The notes below the pieces were generated by a model that saw only the letters and a list, made by a program, of their open reading frames with translations, made no database searches and had not been told where the DNA came from. Positions 20,067-29,510 of a stretch of DNA of 64,000 nt are shown in pieces. The position numbers were made by a program, and so were the translations under genes. The stretch is from Anabaena sp. UHCC 0204. GTDB lineage: Bacteria > Cyanobacteriota > Cyanobacteriia > Cyanobacteriales > Nostocaceae. Position 1 is the first letter of the stretch; each line of letters opens with the position of its first letter. The stretch covers positions 91,611 through 155,610 of the forward strand of contig NZ_VIKW01000006.1 in the NCBI RefSeq assembly GCF_009711975.1, written 5' to 3'.

Positions 20067-21566
20067 TTATATTTTCCCTTTTGCATCTTTTTTACCGATT
20101 GGATTCATCCATATTTCTAACCGGCTAAAAAGTTGAGAAGAAATCAGAGTTAAACATAAATAAATTATAGCTACAGCCGCATAAACTTCAAAAGCGCGAT
20201 AATTTTCTGCAACAATTAATTGTCCTTTTCTAAATAATTCCTCAAACCCGATTACCGCAACCAAGCTAGTATCTTTTAATAAACTAATAAACTCATTTCC
20301 TAAAGGTGGAATCATGCGCCGAAATGCTTGAGGAAAAATTACATAAGTCATTGTTTGCAGAGGATTTAAACCTAGTGATTTTGCTGCTTCTGATTGTCCA
20401 ATTTCAATAGATTGAATGCCCCCACGGACAATTTCGGCAATATAGGCTGCACTATTTAAACTTAAAGCAATTACCCCAGCGAGAAGACGGTTTAAAGTAA
20501 AAGTAAAACCTAACTCTTGAGAAATTGCCGGTAAGCCAAAATAAATCATAAATATCTGCACTAATAACGGTGTTCCTCGCCAAAAATCTATATAAGCCCT
20601 GGATAAAAAACGCAAAGATTTAATATGAGAAAGGCGAATTATACCAATTAGAGAACCAATTGTTAAACCGAATAAACCTGAGATAAATGCTAATTGCAAT
20701 GTTCCTAATGCACCCTTTAATAGAGTGGGTAAGGATTGCCAAAATATACTCAGAGAATTTAATCTAGCCGTATTCTTATTTATAAATGGTAATGTTTCTG
20801 GTAATGTTGGCGGTGCAGATTTAAACCATTTTTCGTAAATTTGCTGATATTTACCATTTTCTAATATCTTTGTTAAACCTTGATTAATCAAAGATAAATA
20901 AGGAGAATTTTTAGCAGTAGCAATTCCGTAAAATTCCTCAGTTAATAGTTGTTCTATGACTTTGATTCCTTGCAAATTACCTGTATTGATAGCGTATAAG
21001 GTGACGGGTGCATCATTAATAACTGCATCAACATTACCATTTTGTAATTCTTGCAGGGCTAATGGTGCAGAGTCAAAACTGCGAATTTGCGCCCCAGTTA
21101 AACTTTTAGCTTTTTCTGCGCCGGTTGTGCCAATTTGGACGGCAATTTTTTTATTTTGGAGACTGTCAAATCCGGTAATATTTTGATGATCTGCGCGAAT
21201 AGCGATCGCCAAACCTGCTTTAAAATAAGGACGAGAAAAAGTTACCGTCTTGGATCTTTCTTCAGTTATCGTCATGGAACTAATCGCCGCGTCTATGGTT
21301 TTGGCTTGTAGTGCGGGAATAATGCCATCAAAAGGCAAACTCTGAAATTCTACCTGGAAATTTGACCCATCGGCGATCGCCCTCATCAAATCAATAGAAA
21401 ACCCTACTAATTCCCCACCTTTACCTTGAAACTCAAAAGGTGGAAACGCCGGTTCAGTCGCTACTCGGAGAATTTGATTTCCGCGAGAATTTTCACTACA
21501 ACCAGCCAATAAGCAACAAATTAAACCAATGATCACCCACAAACGACCAAATCTAAATTTCACCAT
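20067..21566 (-). CDS. bgtB: Amino-acid ABC transporter, fused binding protein and permease
   Basis: A fused polypeptide of 499 residues from the ATG at 21566. It has a lipoprotein signal (LLAGC), a family-3 solute-binding domain (roughly residues 30-255, TEPAFPPFEFQGKGGELVGFSIDLM) and a HisM/GlnP-type permease domain (about 270-490) with the ATPase-contact motif EAAKSLGLNPLQTMTYVIFP. In cyanobacteria this fusion is the BgtB/Glt type that takes up glutamine, basic or other polar amino acids together with a separately encoded ATPase; no ATPase gene is nearby, as in Anabaena. The start at 21566 was chosen over one 48 bases upstream because it gives a normal signal peptide and follows a GAGGGGGAG ribosome-binding site. 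The exact substrate is inferred. Confidence 0.88.
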   Translation of the reverse strand: MVKFRFGRLWVIIGLICCLLAGCSENSRGNQILRVATEPAFPPFEFQGKGGELVGFSIDLMRAIADGSNFQVEFQSLPFDGIIPALQAKTIDAAISSMTITEERSKTVTFSRPYFKAGLAIAIRADHQNITGFDSLQNKKIAVQIGTTGAEKAKSLTGAQIRSFDSAPLALQELQNGNVDAVINDAPVTLYAINTGNLQGIKVIEQLLTEEFYGIATAKNSPYLSLINQGLTKILENGKYQQIYEKWFKSAPPTLPETLPFINKNTARLNSLSIFWQSLPTLLKGALGTLQLAFISGLFGLTIGSLIGIIRLSHIKSLRFLSRAYIDFWRGTPLLVQIFMIYFGLPAISQELGFTFTLNRLLAGVIALSLNSAAYIAEIVRGGIQSIEIGQSEAAKSLGLNPLQTMTYVIFPQAFRRMIPPLGNEFISLLKDTSLVAVIGFEELFRKGQLIVAENYRAFEVYAAVAIIYLCLTLISSQLFSRLEIWMNPIGKKDAKGKI

Positions 21567-21709
21567 CTCCCCCTCTTTGTGTATTTTGTGTTCAGAGTAG
21601 TTTATTGCCAACACTACAACAAAGTCATGGAGAATGGGAAAAGTGAGATTAACGGCGATACAGAAGAAAACTGTGTCACCTGGTTGTTTTTGTAGCTGTG
21701 AGACAGGTG

Positions 21710-24733: not shown

Positions 24734-25864
24734 ATGCGTCTGACTTCGCTTGATGTTTTTCGTGGTATTACTATTGCAGCAATGATTCTTGCTAACATGG
24801 CCGGAGTCGTAGATAATGTTTATCCTCCCCTTAGTCATGCTCAATGGCACGGTTGTACACCCACTGACTTAATATTTCCCTTCTTTTTATTCATTGTTGG
24901 TGTAGCAATGACTTATTCTCTGTCAAAGTATAGCTCAGAGAATAAACCTACCACAACAGTTTACTTACTGCTGTTACGCCGTGCTGCTATATTATTTGCT
25001 TTGGGTTTACTATTAAATGGTTTTTGGAATAAAGGTGTTTGGACTTTTGACTTTAGTAGTTTGCGAATCATGGGAGTATTGCAACGAATTAGTTTAACTT
25101 ACCTGTTTACATCTTTGATAGTTTTAAAATTACCTCGTAAAAGTCAATGGTTAGTAGCAGGAGGATTACTAATTGGTTATTGGTTGACAATGATGTATAT
25201 TCCAGTTCCTGATTATGGTGCAGGAGTGCTAACAAGGGAAGGTAATTTTGGCGCATTTATTGATAGATTAATTATTCCCAAAGCACATTTATATAAAGGT
25301 GATGGCTTTAATTTGCTGGGAGATCCTGAAGGACTTTTTAGCACCATTCCAGCGATAGTTAACGTTTTAGCTGGTTATTTTACCGGAGAATGGATTAAAG
25401 ATAAAAAACAGGCTAATTCGCAAACAAGTATGGATTTAGTATTATTTGGTTTGTGTTGCTTAGTAATTGCAATTATTTGGGATGTAGCATTTCCCATGAA
25501 TAAGAAACTATGGACTAGTTCCTATGTTGTGTTTACCACTGGTTGGGCGTTAATGTTATTAGCAGCTTGTTATGAATTGATAGAAGTGAGGTTAATAAAA
25601 CGCTGGAGTAAACCATTTGAGATTATGGGCTTAAATGCGATCGCTCTTTTTGTTGCTTCTGTAATGTTAATCAAAATCACAGCCAAAACCCAAATTGGCA
25701 CAGGTGAAACCGCCATTAGTATCTACAATTGGATTTACCAAAATATCTTTGCCTCTTGGGCGGGAAATTTCAACGGCTCATTTTTGTTTGCACTTGTTAC
25801 CTTATTCTTGTGGTACGCTGTTGCTGTCTTGATGTATCAGAAACGCTGGTTTCTTAAAGTGTAA
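24734..25864 (+). CDS. HGSNAT-like multi-pass membrane acyltransferase (DUF5009/COG4299)
   Basis: A 376-residue integral membrane protein with about ten hydrophobic segments. The first (MRLTSLDVFRGITIAAMILAN) and the following loop HAQWHGCTPTDLIFPFFLFIVG match the bacterial family related to human heparan-alpha-glucosaminide N-acetyltransferase. Family members are thought to move acetyl groups from cytoplasmic acetyl-CoA to sugars outside the membrane. The sugar acceptor here is unknown and no glycan genes adjoin. Start and length agree with the family. Confidence 0.88.
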   Translation: MRLTSLDVFRGITIAAMILANMAGVVDNVYPPLSHAQWHGCTPTDLIFPFFLFIVGVAMTYSLSKYSSENKPTTTVYLLLLRRAAILFALGLLLNGFWNKGVWTFDFSSLRIMGVLQRISLTYLFTSLIVLKLPRKSQWLVAGGLLIGYWLTMMYIPVPDYGAGVLTREGNFGAFIDRLIIPKAHLYKGDGFNLLGDPEGLFSTIPAIVNVLAGYFTGEWIKDKKQANSQTSMDLVLFGLCCLVIAIIWDVAFPMNKKLWTSSYVVFTTGWALMLLAACYELIEVRLIKRWSKPFEIMGLNAIALFVASVMLIKITAKTQIGTGETAISIYNWIYQNIFASWAGNFNGSFLFALVTLFLWYAVAVLMYQKRWFLKV

Positions 25865-26103: not shown

Positions 26104-26202
26104 CCTGGACAGAATTAATTACATATTAGTTATTTATCAATCCTTTGCCAATCAAGGATTTTAGTCCAAATGTTTGTGTAATTAATTTTGTCTCATTACT
26201 TA
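26098..26202. mobile_element. 105-bp inverted-repeat element at the ureC/Uma2 break
   Basis: The 26-bp ends 26098-26123 and 26177-26202 are inverted repeats with 21 of 26 matches (core TGTAATTAATT and TACTTA). Homology to UreC ends and homology to Uma2 begins just at its two borders. A further single end lies at 10688-10713. No coding capacity; no clear target duplication, as expected if a deletion accompanied it. Confidence 0.55.
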
Positions 26203-26260
26203 ATCTAACTTTATCGCCTACTGTGAGTTCATAAGTCTCCGCATAAGCGGAACGATTCAT
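26126..26260 (-). pseudogene. ureC: N-terminal remnant of urease alpha subunit gene
   Basis: From the ATG at 26260 the minus strand reads MNRSAYAETYELTVGDKVRL, which matches the start of urease alpha (typical [20 protein letters not shown]). After residue 20 the similarity stops, exactly at the right border of the inverted-repeat element (26202), and the frame ends at 26126 after 44 codons. The rest of the 570-residue subunit, with all nickel ligands, is absent. Together with the ureB remnant at 29241 on the same strand it shows a former ureB-ureC order. Confidence 0.75.
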
Positions 26261-26492
26261 TTTATAACTTATACAATCACCTACTTACTACTTTCTAAGT
26301 TTGTCATATTTTTATTTCTCTTAACTCTTTTCTAAAATTTTGGAGATTGTTATAAAAATAAAAAGATTATCATTACTAGCAAGAATTGAAATTTATAAAA
26401 ATACGTAACATATTGTCCCAATTAGAAAACAAGTATGCTATTTAATAAAATTAGCTAAGTTTAACTTTTTTTACCAAATACACTAAATAATT

Positions 26493-29186
26493 ATGTCTAG
26501 TCGCTTTTCCATATTTAGAAGAACCACAAATGCTCAACATCTACAAAAAAGTACTACATCTGAAAACCAGACAGAAGAGATAAGAGATACAGAAACAACG
26601 GAGGAAACAAACACTAGGATATCACCCCAAGAACAAGCTGAAATCTTTGAGTTGGAAGGAGTTATCCGAAATTTAGAGACTAGCTTCCAAGAAATTGCTA
26701 CTATTGAAGATCCAGTCAAACGGGAGTACAAAATACTTCAGGAAGCGAAAAGACTGGATATGCCACATGAAACCTATCGGCGAATGTGGGCAGGTTACTC
26801 TTTAGAATTGGAAAAAGAACCGGCAAAAGCAAAACATTCCTGGTTCAACCCCCTGACGTTTTTAGATCAGCGACTGGGAGATTTTGTTAAATGGTGTGAA
26901 AATGTTTCTCTGTATAGCTTGGCAACCGTTATTGGTCAATTTACACTGTTAGCAGCAATGGGAGCTTACTTTGTGGAAGCACCGCAGAGAGAGAAAGAGG
27001 CTCTTGATAATGCTAGACAAGAAATTAGAAATCAGAAGGAAGTTGAATATTCTGAATCAAGAATTGAGGCTATGGAATATCTGAATCAGTCCTGTGAAAG
27101 TCTATTAGGAGAACAAGCTTCCAAGGCCAACTTAGAAGGAATTGAACTAAATAAGTGTTATAAATTTGAATGGAATTGGCGGAGGATTGCCCAGTGGCCA
27201 CCGCAGTTTTACAGGTATGAGGGATTTGATCTTTCCCGAATGGATTTATCTGGCGTGAATTTAAGCGGAGCAAACCTTGAGGGTGCAAACCTGGAAAAAG
27301 CTAATCTAGAGGGTGCAAACCTGGAAAGAGCAAATCTCAAGGGGGCAAATTTGAAGGGTGCGAACCTCAAAGGGGCAATTCTTCGAGCGGCTTATTTAGA
27401 AAAAGCCAATTTAGAGCAAGCGAATCTTGATAGTAGTCGCATGAGCCGGATTTATTTAAGAGATGCAAATTTGACGAAAGCATCAGTAATTAACTCCCGG
27501 TTGCTATGGGCTGATTTACAAGGGGCAAATCTCAATCAAACCAATTTCCAAGGTTCTAATCTCAGCCGTGCTAATATTCAAAGTGCTGATCTCTACAAAG
27601 CTAACTTTAGGGGAGCTTCCCTTCGCTATGTGGATATGCGTAAGGAAACAATTACAATTGGGACTGAATTCGAGCGTGCTAACCTGAAAAGAGGTAAGTT
27701 TTGGTCAGTAGATCAACTGAAACGATCTTATAACTGGGAACAAGCCGCTAAAGATAAAGATTGGGAAGCAAAAATTATTAAAGAAACTCCAGAAAAGTAT
27801 AAAGTTGGGTTTCTTCTTCCTAACGATAACTTAACTTATAAATTATACCAACAAGGTTTAGAAAAACTGGCTAAGGAAAATAAGCAAGTTGAAATTATCC
27901 CCATTAAAACCGGAGAAAGTGTTCAGGAGGAGACTCACGGAATCAAACAGCTACTCACCCAAGATGTAGATATAATCATCATGAGACCATTAGATCCTGA
28001 GAAATCTGTACCAAGTATTCTCCAGGCTTATGTTGCTGGTGTGGTGGTGGTTAATATCGGTGATTGCTTACCCAAAGAATCCCAGAAAGTAGTATTTGCT
28101 TGTTATGAAAGCGATTCTTTAGCTATGGGTTACGACCTTGGCAGATACATGGGGAAAGGGGTATTAAATAGGAGAAATAAACAGATTAAAGAGTTAAATG
28201 TAGGTTTAGTAGATGGGGCAGATTCAACTCGTCTTTATCCTTATTTACAGGGATTTATCAAAGGTATAGAAGATTCTGGTGCAAAATGGACCGAAACGGG
28301 AACGACAGATGGCAGAACACCGGAAGATGTAGATAAGGTCAAAGCGATGCTCAAGCGTCACCCAAAGATTAATGTTTTGTGGGGTGGTTCAGAAATGACC
28401 ACAGAAATTGCGCTCCAAGCTGTTAGGGAGTTGGGGTTGAGCAAAAAGGTAAGTGTGTATGGAATTGTTCCTTTAACTCGTAAGTTGGCAAATATGCTGC
28501 TCGATCCTAATCAACCTCTGCAATCAATTGTGGATGAAGCACCCAGCTATGCGGCTAATGAAGCTGCTAAACACGCAATTAATGTAATTGAAGGGAAAAT
28601 TTCTAAGGAATATAAGCACGTAGTATTCCAACATCGGTTATTGACTGTGAGCGATCGCACAAAAGTTAATGCTTTAATTGGTGACGCGCTAGATTTGGAG
28701 AAAAACACTCTCAAAAAACCAATTCCCCTGCAAGCTGGAGCTAGTCTGATACCTACTGAAATTCCCTCTAGTTTAGATCCTTCCGTTGCTGATTCTCTCA
28801 GAGCTATTACTGATGAGAAAAAGATCCAGAAATTACAAGAAGATTTACAAAAAATCATTGTCAAGAATTGGCAAATATCTAACAACAAAGAAGCTGATGA
28901 AACATCTGTTAATTTTGATCGAGATTTGGTTTATCGGGTACTGATAGATTCTGAAGGAGCAGTTGTTTCCTATGAACCAATTGATAAATTAGCGATTGAT
29001 TTACTGCAAACCACACCTTTACCTAAATTGTTATCTAAACCTGATGACGGTAAAGCAAAAGATGAAACTCTCATCTTACCTACTAAACTAGTAATCAATA
29101 ATTCTGTGACTGAATTTAAGGTTGTATTTAGTCCTAGCGGTAAAGTTGAAGTCAAATGGGGAGAAAGTTTCTTAGCAGATGAATAA
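26493..29186 (+). CDS. Membrane protein fusing pentapeptide repeats to a periplasmic sugar-binding-protein fold
   Basis: An 897-residue protein. Residues 1-45 are polar and Thr/Glu-rich, and 46-135 helical. One membrane segment lies at about 140-161 (YSLATVIGQFTLLAAMGAYF) and a helical stalk at 165-215. About 30 pentapeptide repeats follow at 246-400 (ANLEGANLEKANLEGANLER) and would form a right-handed quadrilateral beta-helix. Residues about 436-735 are a type-1 periplasmic binding protein (Peripla_BP_4-like: KYKVGFLLPNDNLTYKLYQQ, DVDIIIMRPLDP, GYDLGRYMGKG, INVLWGGSEMTTEIALQAV). The last 150 residues (YRVLIDSEGAVVSYEPIDKL, TPLPKLL) resemble a tail found in other cyanobacterial regulators. 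No binding-protein export signal or ABC permease partner is present. A role as ligand sensor is inference. The gene sits between urease remnants on the opposite strand. Confidence 0.88.
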   Translation: MSSRFSIFRRTTNAQHLQKSTTSENQTEEIRDTETTEETNTRISPQEQAEIFELEGVIRNLETSFQEIATIEDPVKREYKILQEAKRLDMPHETYRRMWAGYSLELEKEPAKAKHSWFNPLTFLDQRLGDFVKWCENVSLYSLATVIGQFTLLAAMGAYFVEAPQREKEALDNARQEIRNQKEVEYSESRIEAMEYLNQSCESLLGEQASKANLEGIELNKCYKFEWNWRRIAQWPPQFYRYEGFDLSRMDLSGVNLSGANLEGANLEKANLEGANLERANLKGANLKGANLKGAILRAAYLEKANLEQANLDSSRMSRIYLRDANLTKASVINSRLLWADLQGANLNQTNFQGSNLSRANIQSADLYKANFRGASLRYVDMRKETITIGTEFERANLKRGKFWSVDQLKRSYNWEQAAKDKDWEAKIIKETPEKYKVGFLLPNDNLTYKLYQQGLEKLAKENKQVEIIPIKTGESVQEETHGIKQLLTQDVDIIIMRPLDPEKSVPSILQAYVAGVVVVNIGDCLPKESQKVVFACYESDSLAMGYDLGRYMGKGVLNRRNKQIKELNVGLVDGADSTRLYPYLQGFIKGIEDSGAKWTETGTTDGRTPEDVDKVKAMLKRHPKINVLWGGSEMTTEIALQAVRELGLSKKVSVYGIVPLTRKLANMLLDPNQPLQSIVDEAPSYAANEAAKHAINVIEGKISKEYKHVVFQHRLLTVSDRTKVNALIGDALDLEKNTLKKPIPLQAGASLIPTEIPSSLDPSVADSLRAITDEKKIQKLQEDLQKIIVKNWQISNNKEADETSVNFDRDLVYRVLIDSEGAVVSYEPIDKLAIDLLQTTPLPKLLSKPDDGKAKDETLILPTKLVINNSVTEFKVVFSPSGKVEVKWGESFLADE

Positions 29187-29240
29187 AAGTTAAAACAGAT
29201 ATAATTTCTGCTCTAATTATGCAATTGAAACTTATTTTTT

Positions 29241-29438
29241 TTACAGTTTTCCATTAATTTTGCCGTTGAATCCATAAATTTGACGGCTATCAACTACAGG
29301 AACTAGAGTAACTTCTTTTTCATCTCCCGGTTCAAATTTCACTGCTGTACCTGCGGGGATATCTAATCTCATTCCTCTGGCTTTTTCTCTATCAAATAAT
29401 AAGGCATTATTAACTTCGTAAAAGTGAAAATGTGAACC
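29241..29438 (-). pseudogene. ureB: C-terminal remnant of urease beta subunit gene
   Basis: The minus strand reads [20 protein letters not shown], continues with [20 protein letters not shown] and ends in [11 protein letters not shown] plus stop (29241-29243), a clear match to the last 65 residues of the roughly 101-residue urease beta subunit. Upstream of GSHFHF the similarity is lost (the frame reads SSDNF where NTGDRPIQV is usual) and there is no start codon. It is therefore a truncated gene. Another frame over the same bases looks open but has no similarity. Confidence 0.8.
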
Positions 29439-29510
29439 AAAGTTATCGCTGGACTTGTAGTTAAAGCGATGATACTCATATCCTCTATTTTTTGGCAGAT
29501 AAAGTTAAAC

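Follow-up and report, generated by a model that had tools for sequence, protein, structure and literature searches.

A cyanobacterial gene joining a hydrophobic helix and pentapeptide repeats to a type-1 periplasmic-binding-protein domain

The fusion gene and its relatives

The window analyzed here is a stretch of 64,000 nucleotides from Anabaena sp. UHCC 0204 (contig NZ_VIKW01000006.1, positions 91,611 to 155,610), and our subject is one gene within it, hereafter the fusion. Domain searches and a structure model show a single open reading frame (ORF) with a hydrophobic helix, a predicted rod of pentapeptide repeats and a complete two-lobed binding domain. In window coordinates its parts are:

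26493..29186, + strand: whole fusion gene, 897 codons and a stop
26493..26918, + strand: residues 1-142, putative cytoplasmic N-terminal region, least conserved
26919..26975, + strand: residues 143-161, one hydrophobic helix, putative membrane anchor, inside helix 140-180 of the structure model (low confidence)
26976..27224, + strand: residues 162-244, helix and cap with invariant Cys201 and Cys222, a putative disulfide
27225..27692, + strand: residues 245-400, about 29 pentapeptide repeats, right-handed beta-helix
27693..27788, + strand: residues 401-432, cap and linker, resembling by eye the end of some cyanobacterial pentapeptide-only membrane proteins
27789..28697, + strand: residues 433-735, full-length type-1 periplasmic-binding-protein domain (Peripla_BP_4); Cys525 and Cys537 are invariant
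28716..29183, + strand: residues 742-897, tail domain, long form only; common to DUF4335 proteins, with a weak likeness to TonB/TolA C-termini

An earlier reading of the sequence alone (the sequence-only reading) had described one intact 897-codon gene with a helix, about 30 repeats and a type-1 binding domain, and this description stands. In the protein, 29 pentads lie in register (strict run, 13), PF00805 matches at 1.4e-44, and both the predicted structure and a match to HetL agree with a pentapeptide beta-helix. Under the rule that a pentapeptide repeat protein has at least eight contiguous repeats, as given in the available part of a review (PMC8145042), its contiguous pentapeptides forming a beta-helix place it in this family. 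Peripla_BP_4 (PF13407) scores 71.1 bits against a curated cut-off of 35.1 and is covered from position 1 to 257 of 258; domain and profile searches thus recover a binding fold in the region where it had been predicted. The fold is RbsB/TorT/XylFII-like, and the fusion protein is the only Peripla_BP_4 match in the host genome at E 0.001. In the structure model, the predicted local distance difference test score (pLDDT) is below 50 for residues 1-42 and 48-60 in a block around the hydrophobic helix.

Across the order, 23 of the 291 genomes searched contain the binding domain; two more (G127, G180) have the tail alone and were excluded from the fusion-bearing count. Four of ten sampled genomes of the genus carry the fusion, and a sample drawn from the whole phylum gave 7 matching genomes out of 386, every one from the same order. 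A scan of named genomes yielded 33 loci, i.e. 30 cyanobacterial ones and three ORFs of 339-352 amino acids with at most one repeat motif (L067-L069), which were left out of the 30. Each of the 30 cyanobacterial loci consists of one ORF, in which 13-20 A(N/D)(L/F) motifs occur. Alignments show the repeats to precede the domain in 28 named loci and in L013, the counterpart of L039; L054 was judged by motif count and length. Of our alignments, A1 omits L013, L014 and L027; the 29-row A2 and the tree omit L039 and L054; A3 is a 21-row subset of A2, and A4 comprises 12 of 21 lipoprotein copies (see below). All 20 relatives compared match the Peripla_BP_4 model at E 0.01 or better. Against four relatives, the ratio of nonsynonymous to synonymous substitution rates (dN/dS) is 0.11-0.20 overall and 0.09-0.14 in the binding domain, residues 1-142 being the loosest (0.25-0.38).

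Judged from these comparisons, the fusion gene is real, conserved among cyanobacteria and under purifying selection. That two genes had been joined by an assembly error, a check named by the sequence-only reading itself, is ruled out by the single-ORF structure of all 30 relatives together with the low dN/dS. The wider proposal of a joined frame through assembly error or of a decaying gene could appeal to relics of other genes that adjoin the fusion, yet nothing within the gene itself speaks for it, the relatives are of like kind, and we give it practically no weight. In Oscillatoriales cyanobacterium USR001, two fusion genes stand in tandem (L044:3221-7588), with a long form elsewhere (L040).

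Two branches, a lipoprotein partner and a place among urease genes

We clustered the neighborhoods of the 30 named loci together with that of the window gene. A binding lipoprotein of the Peripla_BP_6 (leucine-type) class lies upstream of the fusion on the same strand in 19 of 23 short-form loci, and at 14 of these the two genes are less than 100 bp apart. The nearest solved relative of this partner is 4kv7 (E 4e-62). A loose lipobox pattern is matched by 18 of 21 lipoprotein copies, some perhaps at another cysteine; by eye, the three misses show LPGC, VNGC and LNGC. In the tree of 29 rows, a branch supported at 100/99 separates the 18 partner-bearing rows from the other 11, which are without the partner. 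Among the 291 genomes, the partner occurs in ten, and each of these also carries the fusion, itself present in 23 (Fisher p ~1e-12, relatedness ignored); the host genome of the window is without it. Since the partner is found throughout one branch and never without the fusion, this branch looks, by gene content, like an obligate unit of two binding proteins. That the fusion travels with a second binding protein in one branch further suggests an undescribed receptor and not part of a transporter. Two Trichodesmium loci (L053, L058) have two partner lipoprotein copies near the fusion, and in four Okeania loci (L056:11543-12817; L059, L062, L064) yet another binding protein (SBP_bac_1, tested in L056) is encoded downstream in the opposite orientation.

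The tail, which the sequence-only reading had taken for a general conserved feature, proves to be confined to the long form. The same segment is common to DUF4335 proteins, three of which hold two copies each; PF14233 (DUF4335) is absent from the window protein and present in L032. By eye, the tail copies of three DUF4335-type proteins (L079:964-2415, L032:829-2277, L033:1162-2619) come after a hydrophobic segment and a spacer rich in proline, an outline that is TonB/TolA-like with weak profile support. In the host genome, the TonB_2 profile reaches a DUF4335-type protein at a weak E of 0.81, and a PDB profile search with the tail as query gave no matches. We treat the weak resemblance of the tail to TolA/TonB C-termini as a lead only.

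At 8 of the 11 long-form loci (L037, L038, L039, L041, L042, L043, L080, L082), the fusion and ureC are divergently oriented neighbors, and ureB is on the other side in seven of these eight, with 0 to 3 ORFs between; in L039 the sequence ends there. In the neighboring DNA examined, no urease genes were found at L040 or L081, nor at any of the 23 short-form loci. The window copy is flanked by relics:

26195..26272, - strand: relic of the ureC 5' end, 26 codons, 73% identical to UreC of L037
29244..29441, - strand: relic of the ureB 3' part (residues 36-101, 66 codons), 89% identical to UreB of L037

The block 26179-29440 has 87% identity to its counterpart in L037, and elsewhere in the genome two further contigs (L078, L109) carry intact ureC and ureD-A-B. 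As these alignments tell it, the window copy has been relocated or duplicated together with the margins of its neighbors. That a copy away from the urease genes is still under selection argues for a role independent of adjoining urease genes.

This bears on the idea of a urease- or urea-linked sensor, which draws on the position of most long-form genes between ureB and ureC. The divergent ureC neighbor recurs in several families, relics of both genes flank even the window copy, and a receiver-HisKA-HATPase protein is encoded on the ureC side, beyond ureC, at 3 (L039:3704-4870), 7 (L042) or 9 (L041) genes from the fusion; L080 has a relative of it at 96%. Yet the window copy has stayed intact with its urease genes elsewhere, and the loci free of urease neighbors include L040, L081 and every short form. 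GTAN8TAC, which we take to be an NtcA-type site, occurs in 1 of 14 upstream stretches, where about 1.8 are expected by chance (0.13 per stretch). We consider such a sensor very improbable.

Only slightly better placed, and still improbable, is a helper in the assembly or stability of an enzyme outside the cytoplasm, comparable to the orphan binding proteins MxaJ and PedG beside quinoprotein dehydrogenases. The fusion protein has no output domain, in accordance with this idea, and the Pseudomonas ped cluster holds orphan binding proteins together with a pentapeptide protein, according to the accessible part of PMC12997753. However, no enzyme gene was observed to recur throughout the lipoprotein branch, where neighbors shared by at least three loci reach at most five loci, the lipoprotein excepted; and the urease genes, which recur in the other branch, have left the window copy. 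Moreover, urease is a cytoplasmic enzyme.

Topology, ligand and transport

By hydropathy scan only, with a cut-off of 1.6 that is our own, residues 143-161 are the sole stretch of the fusion protein above threshold, which bears on the question of a signal peptide. The helix exceeds this cut-off in 24 of 30 loci; in the remaining ones the segment aligns but falls short. Past the helix, the 29 aligned proteins contain 124 cysteines, 116 of them in four columns (201, 222, 525, 537), and each column is filled in all 29 rows. The spacing is 21 in the first pair and 11-13 in the second at all 30 named loci. That the cysteines form two constant pairs, with few elsewhere, argues for disulfides outside the cytoplasm. 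We infer from this pattern that the cysteines pair as 201-222 and 525-537, with the N-terminus in the cytoplasm and the remainder of the protein outside it.

The sequence-only reading had suggested a sugar ligand. Fourteen positions of E. coli RbsB are taken by us to be its ribose contacts; two are identical in the fusion protein and 12 differ, so that a sugar ligand is not supported for it. Across 20 rows, N190 is replaced by S in 19 and R141 by Y in 15, and R90 is kept in 3; D215 is kept in 11, Q235 in 13, and an aromatic residue at F16 in 18. On this comparison a sugar is unlikely for the window protein and open for the short forms, and the predicted ligand is probably bound in a mode unlike that of ribose.

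The fusion differs from RbsB and other sugar-binding proteins of CUT2 importers not only in these contacts but also in its hydrophobic stretch at 143-161 and in the surrounding genes: in agreement with the sequence-only reading, which had noted no ATP-binding cassette (ABC) permease partner beside the gene, no permease gene adjoins it in the window. The host genome encodes two PF02653 permeases, LivH/UrtB-like and LivM-like by best model and both below the curated cut-offs. The cognate RbsC-type permease characteristic of CUT2 importers is accordingly found neither beside the gene nor, by best model, in the genome.

Those two permeases could nevertheless serve a tethered capture protein, which would pass a nutrient to a distant permease (e.g. 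of the LivHM type) or to the binding lipoprotein. The domain belongs to the family of binding proteins that serve ABC importers, the partner lipoprotein belongs to the leucine-binding class, and in one relative (L051) a peptide-type permease lies three genes upstream. Against this, no permease was recognized in the neighbor clusters common to at least 3 of 31 neighborhoods (identified by eye, some by Pfam; rarer ORFs partly identified), and the permeases of the genome are, by best model, not RbsC-like. A membrane-fixed rod is also unusual for a delivery protein. We regard capture as rather unlikely, though as the strongest of the competing explanations.

A possible envelope receptor and its known parallels

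We propose that the fusion is a membrane-tethered extracytoplasmic ligand receptor and not a transport subunit, and give this about an even chance of being right. The sequence-only reading had already suggested that the protein senses or receives a ligand, its pentapeptide helix serving as a spacer or for docking; this remains the best reading, at the level of inference, and what has been added is the lipoprotein partner, the four invariant cysteines, the urease place with its relics and the weak resemblance between the tail and TolA/TonB. According to this model, the beta-helix rod would hold the binding domain off the membrane and offer a docking surface, and a small ligand would close the two lobes, thereby altering the docking to a partner. 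This partner would be the leucine-type lipoprotein in one branch and another protein in the window branch. The protein has no known output domain and its N-terminal region shrinks to about 30-60 residues in many short-form relatives; hence a signal inward would need another protein.

Such a relay may resemble that of Corynebacterium glutamicum, where control of the kinase PknG is attributed to the binding lipoprotein GlnH and the transmembrane protein GlnX (PMC9769921). The two systems are alike in outline, by description and not by sequence; GlnX is helical and has four membrane segments. Further working parallels, as far as the available text of PMC6321045 goes, are TorT-TorS, XylFII-LytS and LuxP-LuxQ. 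TorT is the periplasmic trimethylamine N-oxide-binding protein that partners the kinase TorS. Its model is matched by 20 of 20 domain members, but the fusion scores 31.4 and 34.4 bits, below the NCBIfam equivalog cut-off of 310. In contrast to TorT, the binding domain of the fusion is joined to a pentapeptide rod and an anchor, and no TorS-type histidine kinase adjoins the window gene; in relatives, the receiver-HisKA-HATPase protein is 3-9 genes away.

Several observations weigh against the proposed receptor. The fusion protein has neither a kinase nor another known output domain, and in the window branch no partner is common to most loci except the urease genes, themselves dispensable. The helix is only moderately hydrophobic, judging from the loci that reach 1.6, and the structure model is unsure there. 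Positive charges in the 15-residue flanks (1 before the helix, 3 after) lean against an N-in, C-out orientation, and the cysteines are possible metal sites. The short forms retain D215 (11 of 12) and Q235 of the ribose-binding protein, and the near-invariant Arg580 may stand for R141 under another gap placement, the alignment there being unsure. Furthermore, the family profile scores RbsB at 45.6 bits and TorT at 36.9, so that plain RbsB is at least as near.

In its boldest version, the proposal would describe a new type of envelope receptor, i.e. a membrane-fixed rod with a type-1 domain, forming an obligate pair with a leucine-type lipoprotein and working without a permease or a covalently joined kinase; the TolA/TonB-like end of the long form would reach toward the outer membrane, and ligand binding would be coupled across the periplasm. 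We think it unlikely that all of this applies. The fusion is a well-conserved and testable case, not a demonstrated new mechanism.

Each of the domains was already known, and as far as sequence goes, it is their joining and the partner gene that form the new element. The architecture with its partner is not described in the accessible portion of the full-text literature searched, which mostly excludes subscription papers, and the available part of the pentapeptide review (PMC8145042) names no such protein. The same part states that almost nothing is known of what the pentapeptide repeat proteins of cyanobacteria do biochemically, and links HglK and RfrA to septal structure and manganese uptake. 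Here, a pentapeptide protein is tied to a recognizable ligand-binding domain and, in one branch, to a partner gene; if confirmed, this would give a membrane pentapeptide protein a defined role and place a kinase-less receptor in the cyanobacterial envelope. HetL, in contrast, is a pentapeptide repeat protein without a binding domain. Cyanobacterial membrane pentapeptide proteins share the helix, cap and repeats of the fusion but not its binding domain, and cysteines 201 and 222 were not seen by eye in L088-L091 and L095. One protein of 639 amino acids (L093:199-2115) joins two globin domains to the same membrane helix and pentapeptide repeats.

PADLOC gave no match for the fusion or for the one lipoprotein tested, which leaves an anti-phage role without support. 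An MscS-type channel gene lies 1 to 3 genes from the fusion in L081:10804-12456, L040:6526-8130 and L045:5587-7239; all three loci belong to the non-lipoprotein branch and include both long-form loci without urease, and the MscS homolog of the window's genome is on a different contig. Within the window, the upstream neighbor (24734-25864, + strand) is a membrane protein matching HGSNAT_cat and DUF5009, and a 515-amino-acid ORF at 20067-21614 (- strand) joins an amino-acid-type binding protein (SBP_bac_3) to a permease (BPD_transp_1).
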